Below are positions 27,707 through 35,510 of a stretch of DNA of 64,000 nucleotides, one piece after another. Below the pieces are notes generated by a model. The model did not search any database. It saw only the letters and a list, made by a program, of their open reading frames with translations, and was not told the origin of the DNA. The translations under genes and the position numbers were made by a program. The DNA comes from Rhodospirillales bacterium (GTDB taxonomy: Bacteria; Pseudomonadota; Alphaproteobacteria; Rhodospirillales; JAPHRK01), in the NCBI GenBank assembly GCA_026196105.1, contig JAPHRK010000015.1, forward strand, positions 1 through 64,000, read 5' to 3'. Position 1 is the first letter of the stretch. Each line of letters opens with the position of its first letter.

Positions 27707-28825
27707 TCATTGAGCTCGTGAAGGTGGAGGCTGAGAAGGTCTTAACTTAACCGGACGACGTTTTCTGCCCCAATCGCCGGGAGGCCCATCGAACACACCT
27801 CCACATTGAGTGCCGCAGCTTTGGCACTTGCCTTCACCATCCAATTTCCAGGTAGAAAGCTCATACCAATCACGCCCAATCACTAAGTCACCACAGTTAT
27901 GGCAATAGGTGCTATCGCCTTCTTTATTGTGAACATTACCAACATAAGCATAGCGCACGCCATTTTTGATGGCGATTTGTCGTGCCTTGATGAGAGTTTC
28001 AGGTGGCGTTCTAGGGTGTTCCATCATTTTCCAATCAGGATGGAAAGCGCTGAAATGCATGGGCACATCTGGCCCAAGGTTTTCCACCACCCATTGGGTC
28101 ATCTCTTCCAGTTCTCCTTCAGAATCATTTTCTCCAGGAATTATCAAGGTGGTGGTTTCAAACCACACATCGGTTTCATGCTTTAGATATTGCAAGGTTT
28201 CCAGCACATTTTGCAAATGACCACTGCACAGACGGTAATAAAAATCCTCCGTGAAACATTTTAAATCAACGTTGGCAGCGTCCATGTGGTTATAGAATTC
28301 AACCCGAGGCTCATCACATATATACCCAGCCGTCACAGCGACAGTTTTAATCCCCCGAGCGTGACATGCTTTGGCAACTTCAACAGCATATTCGAGGAAG
28401 ATCACTGGATCGTTATAAGTAAAAGCCACCGATTTACAGCCCAGTTGCGCTGCGGCATCGGCAATCATTTCGGGCGAGGCTTGATCTGCAAGCTTATCAA
28501 AAGCCCTGGATTTACTAATGTCATAGTTCTGACAGAACTTGCAGGTCAGATTGCAGCCTGCTGTTCCAAACGATAAAATAGGAGTGCCTGGTAAAAATTG
28601 ATTGAGAGGTTTTTTCTCAATAGGGTCAACACAGAAACCACTGGAGCGGCCATAAGTAGTGAGGCCCATCTTACCGCCGATATTGGCTCGAACAAAGCAT
28701 AAGCCCCGCTGCCCATCTTTGATTTTGCAATAGCGAGGACACAGGTCACATTGGATGCGTCCATCTTCAATTTCGTGCCAATAACGCCCAAGAACGGCTT
28801 GAGGCCGATAAGCCTGATTCATCAA
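27707..28825 (-). CDS. amrS: AmmeMemoRadiSam system radical SAM enzyme
   Basis: 372 aa radical SAM protein. The cluster motif CNLTCKFC (Cx3Cx2C) is preceded by FGTAG near residue 90. An N-terminal cysteine group (CDLCPRYCKIKDGQRGLC) and a C-terminal zinc-ribbon-like region (YCHNC...CQSCGTQC) frame the barrel, as is typical of AmrS and related pyruvate-formate-lyase-activase-like proteins. It is divergent from the Memo-AMMECR1 fusion, the defining partner of the system. The system occurs widely in bacteria and archaea and its chemistry is not established to my knowledge. Confidence 0.9.
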   Translation of the reverse strand: MMNQAYRPQAVLGRYWHEIEDGRIQCDLCPRYCKIKDGQRGLCFVRANIGGKMGLTTYGRSSGFCVDPIEKKPLNQFLPGTPILSFGTAGCNLTCKFCQNYDISKSRAFDKLADQASPEMIADAAAQLGCKSVAFTYNDPVIFLEYAVEVAKACHARGIKTVAVTAGYICDEPRVEFYNHMDAANVDLKCFTEDFYYRLCSGHLQNVLETLQYLKHETDVWFETTTLIIPGENDSEGELEEMTQWVVENLGPDVPMHFSAFHPDWKMMEHPRTPPETLIKARQIAIKNGVRYAYVGNVHNKEGDSTYCHNCGDLVIGRDWYELSTWKLDGEGKCQSCGTQCGGVFDGPPGDWGRKRRPVKLRPSQPPPSRAQ

Positions 28826-28921
28826 AATTCACCAATTTTGTGTTTCAATAGTTGAAAAGTAAGCCTTTCGGGGCCAAGCTTCAACTTGAGAACTTAAAAA
28901 CAGTGACTTAAAGGACTTAAA

Positions 28922-30391
28922 ATGGCGACGGCAAGACCGGCAGCGGTGGCTGGGGCATTTTATGACGATAACCCACAGCGGCTAACTCAATCCATTCTCC
29001 ACTATTTAGTGGAGGCGGAAGAAAAACCTGAATCTAAAGGCAAGGTTCCTAAGGCTATTATCGCCCCCCACGCTGGATATGTTTATTCAGGCTCGGTAGC
29101 GGCAACGGCTTATGCTCGGATTAAACCCGCAAAAGAAACCATTAAAAGGGTGGTTTTGCTTGGCCCTTGTCACCGAGTGGCCGTTCAAGGCCTTGCCATG
29201 AGCAGTGCCGATTATTTCCTGACGCCTCTTGGCCGAATCCCTCTCGACAAACAATTCCAAGCTAAAATCACGGAGCTCCCCCAAGTTACGACCTTTGATG
29301 CGACCCATGCCCAGGAACACAGCCTAGAAGTCCACCTCCCCTTTCTACAAACACTCATTAGAGAGTTCATATTAGTTCCTCTTGTCGTTGGCAATGCAAG
29401 CCCGGAACAGGTTGCAGAGGTTCTTGAAACCCTTTGGGGTGGGCCTGAAACTCTTATTGTCATCAGCACGGACCTTAGCCATTACCTGAATTATGAGCAA
29501 GCACACGAACTTGATGGGAAAACTAAAAATGCCATTGAGAATTTTGATATTGATAGTATTGGCAATGAGCAAGCTTGCGGGCGCATACCTGTAAAAGGAC
29601 TACTTCATCTAGCCAATAAAAAAGGCATGGAAATTTCCACCGTCGATTTCCGCAACTCAGGCGATACGGCGGGACCGAAGAACCGGGTCGTTGGCTATGG
29701 CTCTTGGGTACTAATTGAGTCAGAGAATGAAGTGCCGCAGAATTCTCCCAATCCTGACCCGACAGATGCTTTTGCCCAACAAACCAAAGATATTCTAGAA
29801 AAACATGGAACTATCCTTCTGCAATTAGCCGCAGCTTCTATAGAGTCAGGGCTTGATAAGGGCGTTTCAGCAACCATTGTTCCAACAAATTTCTCTCAAG
29901 ACTTACAAGCCAACGGAGCAGCCTTTGTTACCCTAGAAAAAAACGGTCGTCTCAGAGGATGTATTGGCTCCTTACAGGCCCACCAACCCTTAGTCGAAGA
30001 CGTGGTTCAAAACGCTTTCAAAGCTGCCTTTGGTGATCCTCGGTTTCCAAATTTGGGGCGCGAAGAACTCAAAGACCTCACCATTTCGATCTCTGTCCTC
30101 AGCCCTGCTGCTCCAATGAATATAAGCGATGAAGCTGACCTATTAAGGCAACTGCGGCCCGGTGTTGATGGGCTGATTATTATGGATTTAGGCCGACGCT
30201 CCTTGTTCTTACCCCAAGTCTGGGATCAACTCTCTGACCCGATACAGTTCCTCGCTCACCTTAAACAAAAAGCGGGGCTTCCCGTTGATCATTGGTCTGA
30301 TGGATTTAAAGCGTGGCGTTTTATAACGGAAGGTGTAAAACAAGCCCAACTGAGTGACCCAATGTCTATCTGGAACGAGCCATACGACTAG
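28922..30391 (+). CDS. AmmeMemoRadiSam fusion: Memo domain plus AMMECR1 domain
   Basis: 489 aa cytoplasmic protein that joins two parts of the AmmeMemoRadiSam set. Residues about 5-270 are Memo-like (IAPHAGYVYSGSVAATAY, GPCHRVAVQG, EHSLEVHLPFLQ, STDLSHYL), resembling extradiol dioxygenases with a His-based metal site. Residues about 285-480 are an AMMECR1 domain with the hallmark LRGCIGSL. The radical SAM partner is divergent upstream, sharing a 96-base promoter region. The joint function is unknown; redox or radical modification of a small molecule or protein is a reasonable guess. Confidence 0.92.
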   Translation: MATARPAAVAGAFYDDNPQRLTQSILHYLVEAEEKPESKGKVPKAIIAPHAGYVYSGSVAATAYARIKPAKETIKRVVLLGPCHRVAVQGLAMSSADYFLTPLGRIPLDKQFQAKITELPQVTTFDATHAQEHSLEVHLPFLQTLIREFILVPLVVGNASPEQVAEVLETLWGGPETLIVISTDLSHYLNYEQAHELDGKTKNAIENFDIDSIGNEQACGRIPVKGLLHLANKKGMEISTVDFRNSGDTAGPKNRVVGYGSWVLIESENEVPQNSPNPDPTDAFAQQTKDILEKHGTILLQLAAASIESGLDKGVSATIVPTNFSQDLQANGAAFVTLEKNGRLRGCIGSLQAHQPLVEDVVQNAFKAAFGDPRFPNLGREELKDLTISISVLSPAAPMNISDEADLLRQLRPGVDGLIIMDLGRRSLFLPQVWDQLSDPIQFLAHLKQKAGLPVDHWSDGFKAWRFITEGVKQAQLSDPMSIWNEPYD

Positions 30392-31328: not shown

Positions 31329-32573
31329 TTGTTTTCATCGTTTGATGTGAAGAATTCAAAATATAAAACCTTAAGTACCAAGGAAACTGACAAAGTGACG
31401 GTGAATACATGTTCAGCCCCTATCGCAACCGATAGGGCCTTTTCAAGATTCATTTCATTCGGGCTGGATGATATTCCACACCTGTCTGTAGTGTTTTTTG
31501 CTCTTATTATGACCTTTTCGTTCTTGGCTCCTGCTACAGCACTGGCTCAAGCAGCTGAAGCCATTGGCTCAGTTCTTAAAGTTAAGGGAACTGTTGACGC
31601 CATTCGAGATGGCACAGGCCAAGTCCTCAAAAAGGAAGATCCGGTCTTTATAGGCGACGTTATCCAAACCAGTCTTGTCGGTTCTATTGTTTTAAAACTG
31701 CTTGATGATAGCCTCGTCTCCTTGGATGCTGAAAGCCAAATCGTCCTAGACGACATGGTCTATGACTCGGCAACAGGTTCAGGCCAAATAGCAATGAATG
31801 CTGTACAAGGGGTTTTCTCCTTTGTCTCTGGTAAAATCTCAGCCAATACATCCAGCGGAATGAATGTTCGCTCTCCTTCCATGACTATTGGGATCAGGGG
31901 GACTGTTGATCTCCTTAAAGCAAGACCTGCTGGCTTACAATCAGTCGTTATTAACAAAGAAGGTCGTTCAACAGCACGGAATAGGGCTGGAGCCGTAAAC
32001 TTGGTTGCAGGGGAATTAGCCGAAACAAGCAGCCCAGACCAAGCTCCACAAAAACGGAAATCCACACCAGAGGACGAAGAAGAGTTTAAAAATATTGAAC
32101 TCGAAGTTGCTGATAGTATTGCTGACCCAGCAGGAAGTTCACTTGATAGTTCTGACGATGGTCTTAAGGAAGAGGTTATAAACAAAACTCCCTACCGTCC
32201 ATCTGGGAAAGCAACAGGTAAGCTGACACAAGCTCGGACTACTTCTGGGGCTGTAATGGTCAGTTCGAATACGGCAACAACTTCAGCTGGCTCAACAAGT
32301 GGCGGGAGTTACCCAAGTTCTATCGTTTGTACTTCAGGTAACTATTATTTCAAAATCACCAGTGGTCCTACTATGACAGCAGGAACATCAGCGTCCGGGG
32401 ACCACGACATGCGGTTCAACTGTAGCGGTGGAAGTAGTTATGTTTTTGGCCCAGATGCGAGCCCACAAAGTGGTAACGTTGACACTGATTTAACGTTCAC
32501 TGTCAACGGTGTGACCTTTGACCTTAACTTCAGTGTCTCTGGCAACACTGTCACCATTAATAAATTCGAATAA
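31329..32573 (+). CDS. FecR-domain protein, probably periplasmic
   Basis: 414 aa. After a long N-terminus there is a hydrophobic segment ending in TALAQA (about residues 55-80), probably a signal anchor or signal peptide. The FecR domain follows (about 85-195: GTVDAIR, GDVIQTSLVGSIVLKLLDDS, and IGIRGT near its end). The middle is acidic; the C-terminal 150 residues are Ser/Thr/Gly rich with two cysteines and a beta-like pattern, unlike FecR sensors. No sigma factor is adjacent, so it is more likely structural than a TonB-linked regulator. The start is uncertain (TTG 31329 is very close to AGGGGG; GTG 31347 is possible). Confidence 0.7.
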   Translation: MFSSFDVKNSKYKTLSTKETDKVTVNTCSAPIATDRAFSRFISFGLDDIPHLSVVFFALIMTFSFLAPATALAQAAEAIGSVLKVKGTVDAIRDGTGQVLKKEDPVFIGDVIQTSLVGSIVLKLLDDSLVSLDAESQIVLDDMVYDSATGSGQIAMNAVQGVFSFVSGKISANTSSGMNVRSPSMTIGIRGTVDLLKARPAGLQSVVINKEGRSTARNRAGAVNLVAGELAETSSPDQAPQKRKSTPEDEEEFKNIELEVADSIADPAGSSLDSSDDGLKEEVINKTPYRPSGKATGKLTQARTTSGAVMVSSNTATTSAGSTSGGSYPSSIVCTSGNYYFKITSGPTMTAGTSASGDHDMRFNCSGGSSYVFGPDASPQSGNVDTDLTFTVNGVTFDLNFSVSGNTVTINKFE

Positions 32574-32584
32574 GGAGTGGTTTT

Positions 32585-33145
32585 ATGAAGAATACAACGA
32601 TCAAGCACTGCTCCAGAGCACTACTCGTAGCCATTATTTGTGGAGGGGTCACTTGGGTTTCTCAGAGTGAAGCAAGAGAGTTTCGCTCACCGAACCCCAT
32701 CTTTACACCGAAGGGGCTAGCAGGTGGTTCAGGGTTTAAACTTGATCCGTCAAAGCAGATTAAACTCAATGCTGAAAACCTTCCTGGAATTCGCTTAGGA
32801 CAAGTCCCTAGGAGTGAAGTTACAACCATATTAAAAGATATTATTTCCAAATGGAATACGCCACAGATGGCAAATACATTGGCGAATTCATTTCCTAATA
32901 AATCTGGTTATTTGACCCAATTTTCAGCCAACGCCAGTTCTACTTCCAAAGGACAGCTTGTCTCAGTCCGTGCCATTCAAATGAAGCGTCAAAGAGCAGA
33001 ACGAGTTGGCACTGGGAGCCGAGATGAGATCGAATTAATTAGTGATGTGGTTGTTTCTTTTAAATATCGAATTATGGATTCAGGTGAAGCCTCCGAGGGG
33101 GAAGCTGACTACCAGTTGGAAATAAGGCAGAGGTTTAGCCGATGA
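32585..33145 (+). CDS. Hypothetical periplasmic protein in the FecR/barrel operon
   Basis: 186 aa, family not recognised. AAGGAG upstream of the ATG makes the start firm. A signal peptide of about 30 residues ends near SEA-RE. The mature part is mixed, with a helical middle (EVTTILKDIISKWNTPQ) and a beta-rich C-terminus (DEIELISDVVVSFKYRIM). It lies 11 bases after the FecR-domain gene and overlaps the barrel gene by 4 bases, so the three are translated together. A periplasmic adaptor between the other two products is the simplest guess. Confidence 0.68.
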   Translation: MKNTTIKHCSRALLVAIICGGVTWVSQSEAREFRSPNPIFTPKGLAGGSGFKLDPSKQIKLNAENLPGIRLGQVPRSEVTTILKDIISKWNTPQMANTLANSFPNKSGYLTQFSANASSTSKGQLVSVRAIQMKRQRAERVGTGSRDEIELISDVVVSFKYRIMDSGEASEGEADYQLEIRQRFSR

Positions 33146-35448
33146 GCTTTAAGAATAAATATTTAACCGGCGGTTTGCTCGCCGTTATGTCGTTTGGAGG
33201 ACAAACCGCATCGGCTGCTGAGGCACTCCCAAACAACTTCTTCATTGATCGGATCGTAAATTCTATTACGTCTAATCCTGTTGAAAGTGCCCTCTCCCAT
33301 GATTTATTAAAAGATTTCACTGTTAATTATAACAATACCCTTTCAACTGCTTTGCACAGAAGCAGCGGAGATCACGGTACTCGGCTTTACAGCACGACGG
33401 GAACAGAAACATACAACGACTTTAGTCTATCAATTGCTCGGCAATACGATAACTTCCGTTCAATGAGTGCGATGATTTCTGGTACATTAAGTGCTTCAGA
33501 TTATCGCTACGATGACCGTGGCTTTGTGCCTGAACGGATTAACCTCAAATTTGAAAATGGAGCAGCACATACGCCTTTCAAAGCCGAGGCAGGTGATACC
33601 TTTGCGGACTTTAGTATCCGAACAGTTCAAACATCTGTTAAAGGTGCTCAGATTGAATTCCAACCTCAATCTAAAAACCAAAAAGAGTTTAGCTCTATCC
33701 AACTATTTACGGGAACAGCTAAAACTGATTGGTCAAAAGGCAATCCCAAGCAGGATTACTACACTGGAGCATCTTACTTAGTTGAGATGCCTGATGTGGG
33801 GTTATTTAGCATTAACTGGGTAAACAACATTAAAGAACAGCTGAGTACGACAACGACGGAGTCTAAGACTCAAAACGTCTACAGTATTGCTGGGGAAAAA
33901 GAATTTACTATTCCTGTCGCTAATCTGGAAGTCATCCGGGACATAATGCCTGATCAAAACATCATTGCAGAGGGCGAACTCTCATATTTTACGGGGGATC
34001 ATTCAGAAACAGGCGTTGATGGGACAGATAAAGAGCAGAATGGCAAAGGCTATTTCTTCCAACTAAGCGGAACAAATGCCAGCCCTTTTTCATGGAGAAC
34101 TCGCTACGAGCGTTATAGCAAAGATTTTGCTCCCGCAGGGGCTGGTATTGCAACTGGGACCCAAAATATTGAACTCCATGGAGCCTGGCGACATGAGAGC
34201 GGTTTGCAAACCCGTATTCGCCGCTTGCTCTATACCACGAATGTTGACAATTCAAACCCAACCTTCAGTAAAACCTGGGGGGTTAACTTTTCTGGTCCGT
34301 TCAACACAGATTATTTCCCTCATCGGAAAATTACAGGAACGGCAGACTTCTTCCAAGAAAGAAGTGAAACTGATTATAAAGATGCCGTATCTGTAACGAG
34401 AGTTGCCGATATTAACCTTGCAGCCCCTATGGATTACGGCTGGAATGGCCGCGCTGGATTAGTTATAAAATCAATAGTCGATGTTACGACAGCAACAGGA
34501 AGTTCTCTTACTAAAGAAGTTTCCGTCGGTGGTGATCATGCTTTGACGTATAACAACTGGAAAGGGACAATCACCCCGACCTACAGGCTCACTCAGACAA
34601 AGACAAATTCAACAAACACTTTCGGCAACAACCCAACTTTGTCCATCAATATGCTCAATGGTCAGCATAGCGCAGGTATGGTTGCCAGCTTGACAAAAAA
34701 CGTCGTCGATAATGGCAATAACTATGATGAATATTCTTTTGACGCTAACTATGGGTACAATTTAGGAGCCCATACATTCCGTTTTGAAGGTAATGCCTTA
34801 AAACGAGAAACAAAATCGGCTGGAAGCAATCGCGACCTCCGCATCGGCGTTTCCTGGAACTATAACTACGACAAACCAGCAGGGAGCACTTTAGCAGATA
34901 AGGGACTTGGCGTCGTTTCTCCTGCGACAGTTGCTGAAAGTGATACCCTTGATGTAAAATCTCTGGCACCTGGCCTCTCCCTTAAAGACACATTAGGGCG
35001 TCTTGATCGTCTCAATATCAAAGATGGTGCTGAACAACCTGGAGAACGGGTATTTGAAACGCGCTTGATTGAAGAAGTTCCAACTCGCCAAAGGCTTGTT
35101 GTCCAACATAGTGCTAACACGGTAAACAAAACTGGTGCCGTTATCGCATTTGACAACATTGCCAATGTTGCCGGAACACAGAGAACCTTTAAGCAGGTTC
35201 GGAGCGCTTTGTTTGCTAAATATGGCCAACCAAGTAATGTTGTCGAAAAAGGCAATTTCTCAGCAACTTTAGCCACGGATATCCGTAACGGTGAATTTGT
35301 TCGTATTTACGAGTGGAAAACACCTAGTGGCGTCATTCGTTTTGGCATACCTAAACGTCTCGACAATACAGTCCGCATGGAAGTACAGCATGCCAGATCA
35401 CTGCCACCTACAGCTAACTCAAGCTGGAGCATGGAGACCGTTCGCTAG
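33142..35448 (+). CDS. Large outer-membrane beta-barrel candidate
   Basis: 768 aa with a signal peptide ending at SAA-E (about residue 28). Residues about 60-590 show alternating polar and hydrophobic strands rich in Tyr, Thr, Asn and aromatic residues, many ending in FxFxx or YxY patterns, as in outer-membrane barrels of 20 or more strands. The C-terminal 170 residues (from about 600) look globular, with a segment near 680-750 (FKQVRSALFAKYGQPSNVVE) that resembles small periplasmic lipoprotein folds. The last residue is not aromatic, so the barrel probably does not end at the C-terminus. No plug or TonB box was recognised. Function unknown. Confidence 0.65.
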   Translation: MSFKNKYLTGGLLAVMSFGGQTASAAEALPNNFFIDRIVNSITSNPVESALSHDLLKDFTVNYNNTLSTALHRSSGDHGTRLYSTTGTETYNDFSLSIARQYDNFRSMSAMISGTLSASDYRYDDRGFVPERINLKFENGAAHTPFKAEAGDTFADFSIRTVQTSVKGAQIEFQPQSKNQKEFSSIQLFTGTAKTDWSKGNPKQDYYTGASYLVEMPDVGLFSINWVNNIKEQLSTTTTESKTQNVYSIAGEKEFTIPVANLEVIRDIMPDQNIIAEGELSYFTGDHSETGVDGTDKEQNGKGYFFQLSGTNASPFSWRTRYERYSKDFAPAGAGIATGTQNIELHGAWRHESGLQTRIRRLLYTTNVDNSNPTFSKTWGVNFSGPFNTDYFPHRKITGTADFFQERSETDYKDAVSVTRVADINLAAPMDYGWNGRAGLVIKSIVDVTTATGSSLTKEVSVGGDHALTYNNWKGTITPTYRLTQTKTNSTNTFGNNPTLSINMLNGQHSAGMVASLTKNVVDNGNNYDEYSFDANYGYNLGAHTFRFEGNALKRETKSAGSNRDLRIGVSWNYNYDKPAGSTLADKGLGVVSPATVAESDTLDVKSLAPGLSLKDTLGRLDRLNIKDGAEQPGERVFETRLIEEVPTRQRLVVQHSANTVNKTGAVIAFDNIANVAGTQRTFKQVRSALFAKYGQPSNVVEKGNFSATLATDIRNGEFVRIYEWKTPSGVIRFGIPKRLDNTVRMEVQHARSLPPTANSSWSMETVR

Positions 35449-35478
35449 GCATTTCTCTATTAGATCAAGGAAATATAT

Positions 35479-35510
35479 AAGGGGGAGCTTAAATACTCCC
35501 CTTGCCTTTT
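35479..35510 (+). terminator. Terminator of the FecR/barrel operon
   Basis: AAGGGGGAG (35479-35487) pairs with CTCCCCTT (35496-35503), with one extra G and an 8-base loop, followed by GCCTTTT. It lies 31 bases after the barrel gene stop. Confidence 0.75.

Follow-up and report, generated by a model that had tools for sequence, protein, structure and literature searches.

A tightly packed unit of exported proteins

The window analysed here is a stretch of 64,000 nucleotides from a Rhodospirillales bacterium (contig JAPHRK010000015.1). It harbors three consecutive open reading frames on the + strand (31329-32573, 32585-33145 and 33142-35448 in the ORF list), and by inspection all three products begin with a hydrophobic stretch that runs up to an A-x-A-like site. 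Genes 1 and 2 are separated by an 11-base gap, and genes 2 and 3 share a 4-base ATGA overlap. The tightly packed, exported three-gene unit proposed in a preliminary description of this DNA is confirmed, with the corrections given below. The features of the locus are the following:

31380-31384, + strand: probable ribosome-binding site AAGGA, 10 nt 5' of GTG 31395, proposed from the sequence
31395-32573, + strand: gene 1, encoding an exported protein with a FecR domain (392 aa counted from GTG 31395; 414 aa from TTG 31329)
31545-31793, + strand: gene 1, segment resembling a retention module (matches 5ix9)
31659-31949, + strand: FecR domain PF04773 of gene 1 (E 8.1e-7)
32181-32570, + strand: gene 1, C-terminal module comprising a PYRPSG motif, a Ser/Thr/Gly linker and a beta-rich region at the end (aligned with loci L006 and L008)
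32585-33145, + strand: gene 2, 186 aa, exported; residues 70-186 predicted to adopt an NTF2-like fold
33142-35448, + strand: gene 3, predicted outer-membrane beta-barrel protein (768 aa)
33319-34875, + strand: predicted plug-less 26-strand barrel of gene 3, residues 60-578 (AlphaFold2 pLDDT 75.7)
34954-35445, + strand: C-terminal alpha/beta domain of gene 3 (about residues 605-768, ~160 aa), the most conserved part
35480-35503, + strand: hairpin 3' of the operon, weak candidate terminator (8-bp stem, poor U tract)

The boundaries of the unit required two amendments. The start initially assigned to gene 1, TTG 31329, has an AGGGGG just 2-3 nt upstream; the GTG at 31395, preceded by AAGGA, fits better and is the more likely start on sequence grounds. 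The terminator said to close the unit corresponds to a hairpin that is indeed present but weak: its stability is not above that of shuffled sequences (z 0.56), and the terminator scan scores it on the minus strand only. Upstream of gene 1, a promoter scan of the + strand found no promoter above chance.

The flanking ORFs appear by inspection to be MEMO/AMMECR1-like, CysQ-like, Sua5-like and thioesterase-like, and have no obvious link to the operon. As the preliminary description had pointed out, the FecR domain is not accompanied by a sigma factor or a TonB receptor: neither an ECF sigma factor nor a TonB receptor was found among the neighbouring ORFs in the window. Because the flanks differ in other genomes, the three genes are considered to be the unit. 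A gene for a radical-SAM protein on the minus strand adjoins an apparent fused MEMO-AMMECR1 gene (28922-30391); by inspection, this gene set (27707-30391) is of the AmmeMemoRadiSam type.

Three products, two of them without a known family

The PF04773 match in gene 1 reaches 29.8 bits (gathering cut-off, 24). Part of the same region matches the structure 5ix9, both with the single sequence (phmmer E 2.8e-5) and with a profile (hmmsearch E 1.6e-7, the alignment covering the N-terminal portion of the FecR region). We take 5ix9, labelled 'Antifreeze protein', to be region I of an antifreeze RTX adhesin. The NCBIfam model retention_LapA also hits gene 1 (E 1.5e-4), with 22 bits and hence below its cut-off of 50. 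Retention modules stay periplasmic and hold adhesins in outer-membrane pores (PMC13090378). Likeness to such a domain suggests that the FecR region of gene 1 may anchor the protein instead of travelling with it. The 5ix9 match may, on the other hand, come merely from the general FecR fold; the separate FecR protein of locus L057 (see below) gave no match to 5ix9.

The C-terminus of gene 1 had been described as rich in Ser, Thr and Gly. A low-complexity linker of this composition exists, but it is not merely a tail, as it is followed by a beta-rich module of ~80 aa. When this module was compared with the B proteins encoded at related loci (see below), hhalign gave P 0.005, and none of 100 column shuffles reached the score, with an HHalign probability of only 7%. 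A possible interpretation, offered as a lead, is that the module is the counterpart of the separate B proteins, in which case gene 1 would be a fusion.

Gene 1 has a signal peptide and no RTX profile match, and outside the signal peptide no TAAG-like (LapG-type) cleavage site is seen. A LapG-like cysteine protease (PF06035, E 7e-20) is encoded in the window's own genome, unlinked to the operon (G000 contig 47, L068 6352-7047), where it adjoins a PAS/HD-GYP sensor protein. Since gene 1 lacks a TAAG-like site and the protease is unlinked, proteolytic release of the gene 1 product is not supported. The haem-binding motif CXXCH is absent from the sequences of genes 1 and 2.

Models of genes 2 and 3 were obtained with moderate confidence (pLDDT about 75). 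In the gene 2 model (pLDDT 75), three helices are followed by three long strands. Its nearest structures (VIA) are NTF2-like domains, among them 3ub1, from a conjugation system, which superposes over 87 residues with Z 8.7 and rmsd 2.6, a value borderline for a common arrangement. NTF2 (Z 8.3) and DotI (Z 7.7) also match, and on this model gene 2 may be regarded as a borderline NTF2-like protein. In Pfam, NCBIfam and PDB sequences, gene 2 gave chance matches only, also with a profile of 21 homologues; one of these 21 matched LptE at chance level (E 0.031). No chaperone profile matched gene 2.

Structure prediction agrees with the earlier view of gene 3 as a barrel with an extra C-terminal domain: 26 strands are predicted, followed by a domain of ~160 aa. 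The best structural match of the model is MtrB (Z 18.5, rmsd 4.9, 440 residues), followed by pilus ushers (Z 15-16), which Foldseek ranks first; the model also resembles AlgE and substrate-specific porins (Z about 14). Gene 3 found no family in Pfam (E up to 1), NCBIfam or PDB sequences, and a profile of 14 homologues did no better. A few homologues weakly match outer-membrane models: GSU2204 in two homologues (E 7e-4 and 0.015) and TIGR03016 (E 0.014). Neither of the outcomes that would have refuted the preliminary description occurred: gene 3 is predicted to be a barrel, and it matched no porin or TonB-receptor family. The C-terminal domain carries the motif RxxEW...G.(L/I)R(F/L)GIPRRLDG.VRxE and found nothing credible in PDB or Pfam, where DUF6301 came closest (best E 0.0052, in 3 of 12).

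A conserved pair with changing partners

The statement that the operon does not match a known system is supported, as genes 2 and 3 have no family in Pfam, NCBIfam or PDB sequences and the gene order is conserved. Gene 3 is present once in its own genome. Counting that genome, it was detected in 4 of 100 relatives, in 5 of the 317 genomes searched from the order (one of them through a short C-terminal match only), in 8 of 385 genomes of the class and in 7 of 398 of the phylum. A search for conserved gene order found the arrangement in three further genomes of this order. G005 ('Rhodobacterales bacterium' HKST-UBA117) and G024 have the complete set of genes 1 to 3; in the Magnetospira MAG G058 genes 2 and 3 are present and the contig end cuts off gene 1. 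The gene 1 orthologues of loci L006/L066 and L008 share 35-36% identity with the window protein.

The pair formed by the small protein and the barrel extends to about 20 loci in 9 families. In 19 loci gene 3 follows directly on gene 2; the two overlap by 4 nt in 18 of them and are 10 nt apart in the remaining one. These 19 loci include same-genus orthologues and amount to about 11 independent or divergent lineages. Two loci (L054 and L057) show the order barrel-FecR-B-small, and one genome (G603) has three divergent copies. When a gene 2 profile was run over 15 barrel-bearing genomes, its matches adjoined the barrel except for one extra copy and one fragment. The conservation of gene order is more than chance. 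The extra copy, in G951 (L084 5561-6142), is found beside a B gene, with no recognised barrel within 12 kb.

In a tree of the barrels, those of the window clade form one group (support 100/100), and the two barrels of the Magnetospira family branch as the sister group of the window protein (99/98); the tree does not resolve the deeper forks. Within the tested set, a tree holding the FecR loci together as one clade was neither supported nor rejected (p-AU 0.44). No match was found in a plasmid tblastn search with two divergent barrels, nor in a single-sequence scan of genome contigs, and a literature search for this operon found no paper.

Other exported proteins are encoded beside the pair, and they differ among clades. 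They can be summarized as follows:

(i). B proteins are almost always found beside the pair, with their gene lying ahead of it, and have a GxNPFNxxDP-like motif and a beta-rich C-terminus. The window clade has no separate B gene, and its gene 1 leads from a FecR domain through a linker to a beta-rich end. In the split loci L054 and L057, the FecR gene is separate and adjoins B, and both FecR proteins contain PF04773. FecR is not the core of the system, but one of several alternative proteins beside a conserved pair. Two B proteins (L052 5363-6649 and within L084 6538-8049) have tandem repeats at the N-terminus, with units of 19 and 15 residues, respectively, far above shuffled sequences; the repeats, KPMVVNVTRQGEGMTSGVD-like in L052 and APLLTTSALRYAPGR-like in L084, precede the GTNPFD/GTNPFN motif and could be fibre-like or serial binding motifs.

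(ii). X proteins (790-1100 aa) are large exported proteins found in other clades. Their last ~190 aa are common across clades (HHalign 92-94%, E about 1e-7), and the 560-870 aa at the N-terminus show no relationship from one clade to another. A changing N-terminus over a constant C-terminal domain is the usual mark of a passenger plus a transport domain, and the X proteins are read in this manner. In the 11 genomes searched, X domains are confined to these operons. A relationship between the X C-terminal domain and either the FecR C-terminus or B was considered and discarded, as the comparison shows no relation.

(iii). Y proteins (1031-1738 aa) are also large and exported, and occur likewise in other clades (L058 2-3097, L030 9529-13896 and L032 136-5352). 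Parts of them are rich in coiled coil, a kinase-like DxxPxNhhh stretch lies in the C-terminal half, and they have no Pfam match above cut-off.

A putative export and display module

The combination of a conserved pair, changing clients, a large pore predicted to be plug-less and Sec export favours an export or display machine. Our tentative reading, to which we give a probability of roughly 0.4, is that the operon encodes a Sec-dependent, two-step outer-membrane export or display module with a dedicated large pore and, in this genome, a FecR-anchored client. A 26-strand barrel without a plug, if the model is right, would need an occupant. The operon encodes no ATPase or TonB part, which would agree with usher or two-partner pathways. 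The roles suggested at the outset, building a surface structure or secreting the FecR protein, point in the best-supported direction, with the FecR region itself a possible anchor rather than cargo.

Export itself, its direction, who binds whom and the topology are what we infer in the following scheme. All products would cross the inner membrane via Sec. In the outer membrane, gene 3 would form a wide barrel of 26 strands that has no plug, and its C-terminal domain would sit on the periplasmic side. The periplasmic product of gene 2, predicted to be NTF2-like, would dock on the barrel or on its C-terminal domain and guide or gate the client. The client, a beta-rich exported protein (B or, here, the C-terminal module of gene 1), would enter or cross the barrel. 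The FecR/retention-like domain of gene 1 would be too bulky for the pore and would stay in the periplasm as an anchor, with the Ser/Thr/Gly linker sitting in the pore.

Several known systems show partial likeness to such a module. The 5ix9 match suggests a likeness to LapA/MpAFP-type RTX adhesins (type 1 secretion) and to Pseudomonas aeruginosa CdrA/CdrB, in which a periplasmic FecR-like module at the N-terminus of an exported protein would be shared, and the surface protein is held in an outer-membrane pore (PMC13090378). Unlike the LapA type, however, the operon has a Sec signal peptide, neither RTX repeats nor ABC/TolC parts, no visible LapG site, and as its pore one large barrel from a different family. 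Chaperone-usher pili (FimD/PapC) also combine subunits exported by Sec with a small partner in the periplasm and a large barrel that ends in a periplasmic domain, without an ATPase, and ushers are among the best structural matches. In contrast with ushers, the barrel has 26 predicted strands rather than 24 and no plug, and the small protein models as NTF2-like instead of as a two-Ig-domain (PapD-like) chaperone. Membership in the chaperone-usher family was discarded, as neither the window protein nor its 14 homologues match an usher Pfam family and no PapD-like chaperone is found.

If the pore moves proteins, it would extend the short list of two-step secretion pathways, and FecR domains that take no part in iron signalling would gain a role as periplasmic anchors. 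The conserved pore, its partner and the variable clients lack a name in Pfam or NCBIfam. That they constitute an undescribed secretion or display pathway of Pseudomonadota, in which the 26-strand barrel, equipped with a C-terminal domain of its own, and its NTF2-like partner would translocate dedicated clients (X-type proteins or, in the window, a FecR-anchored surface protein), is a more doubtful proposition. Counting against export are the X proteins of 1100 aa, which would be hard to pass if folded in the periplasm, the weak homology between the FecR C-terminus and B (HHalign probability 7%), the moderate pLDDT and the lack of a LapG-type site in gene 1.

The main rival, which we consider unlikely, is a complex that permanently spans the envelope and has no export function. 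In it, gene 2 and/or gene 1 would plug the barrel, the FecR domain (SPOR in a relative) would tie it to peptidoglycan or periplasmic partners, and the function would be structural or organising. Such a complex would fit the observation that gene 2 is bound to the barrel more strictly than any client, as well as the presence of an N-terminal SPOR domain, a peptidoglycan-binding type, in one homologous barrel, and the co-occurrence of FecR domains with LysM in other proteins (PMC5192318). The chance-level LptE match of one gene 2 homologue would point in the same direction. LptD/LptE likewise combines a barrel of 26 strands with an invariable small partner in the periplasm; the small protein of the operon, however, is not a lipoprotein and models as NTF2-like, and neither gene 3 nor its 14 homologues match an LptD profile. 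A permanent complex leaves unexplained why the large exported proteins change from clade to clade over a conserved C-terminal domain.

A channel for a substrate (nutrient, polymer or polysaccharide), with genes 2 and 1 as periplasmic binding or scaffold proteins, seems improbable: the fold resembles AlgE and substrate-specific porins among others, but matches of this kind are common to many barrels, and in the compared loci the genes conserved beside the module include no transporter, polymer synthase or catabolic gene.

Even less probable is a relative of the MtrB/PioB porins serving as sheath for a membrane-crossing protein, be it an electron conduit or another inserted partner. MtrB, the best structural match, is likewise a 26-strand barrel, MtrAB and PioAB are wide barrels that need an inserted partner, and the weak GSU2204 matches of two homologues agree with such a relationship. 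However, the operon encodes no haem protein comparable to the decahaem cytochrome partner, as genes 1 and 2 lack CXXCH, and no sequence relation was detected: hhalign against PF11854 proteins gave 0.7%, with a comparison profile of only two sequences, and PF11854 matches neither gene 3 (hmmscan) nor any protein of its own genome. A haem-less sheath for an inserted partner would merge with the export and display reading.

Cell-surface signalling of the FecR type, with a FecR anti-sigma regulator and a TonB-type receptor, is extremely improbable and, on the features tested, ruled out as FecIRA signalling: the likeness ends with the name of the PF04773 domain, no sigma factor adjoins the operon, gene 1 has a cleavable signal peptide in place of a cytoplasmic anti-sigma domain, and neither gene 3 (Pfam, E up to 1), whose strands start at residue 60, nor its 14 homologues have plug or TonB_dep_Rec domains.

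Additional observations concern relatives of the barrel in other arrangements. At L053 (2390-5326), the homologous barrel with the N-terminal SPOR domain (PF05036, E 4e-13) is followed on its 3' side by small exported proteins and by one with many short tandem repeats. At L033 (2893-3483), the C-terminal domain of the barrel occurs alone, unlinked to a barrel, as an exported protein of 196 aa with a twin-arginine/lipobox-like N-terminus. At L056 (6179-7577), a tandem pair of fragments of this domain look like decayed copies.
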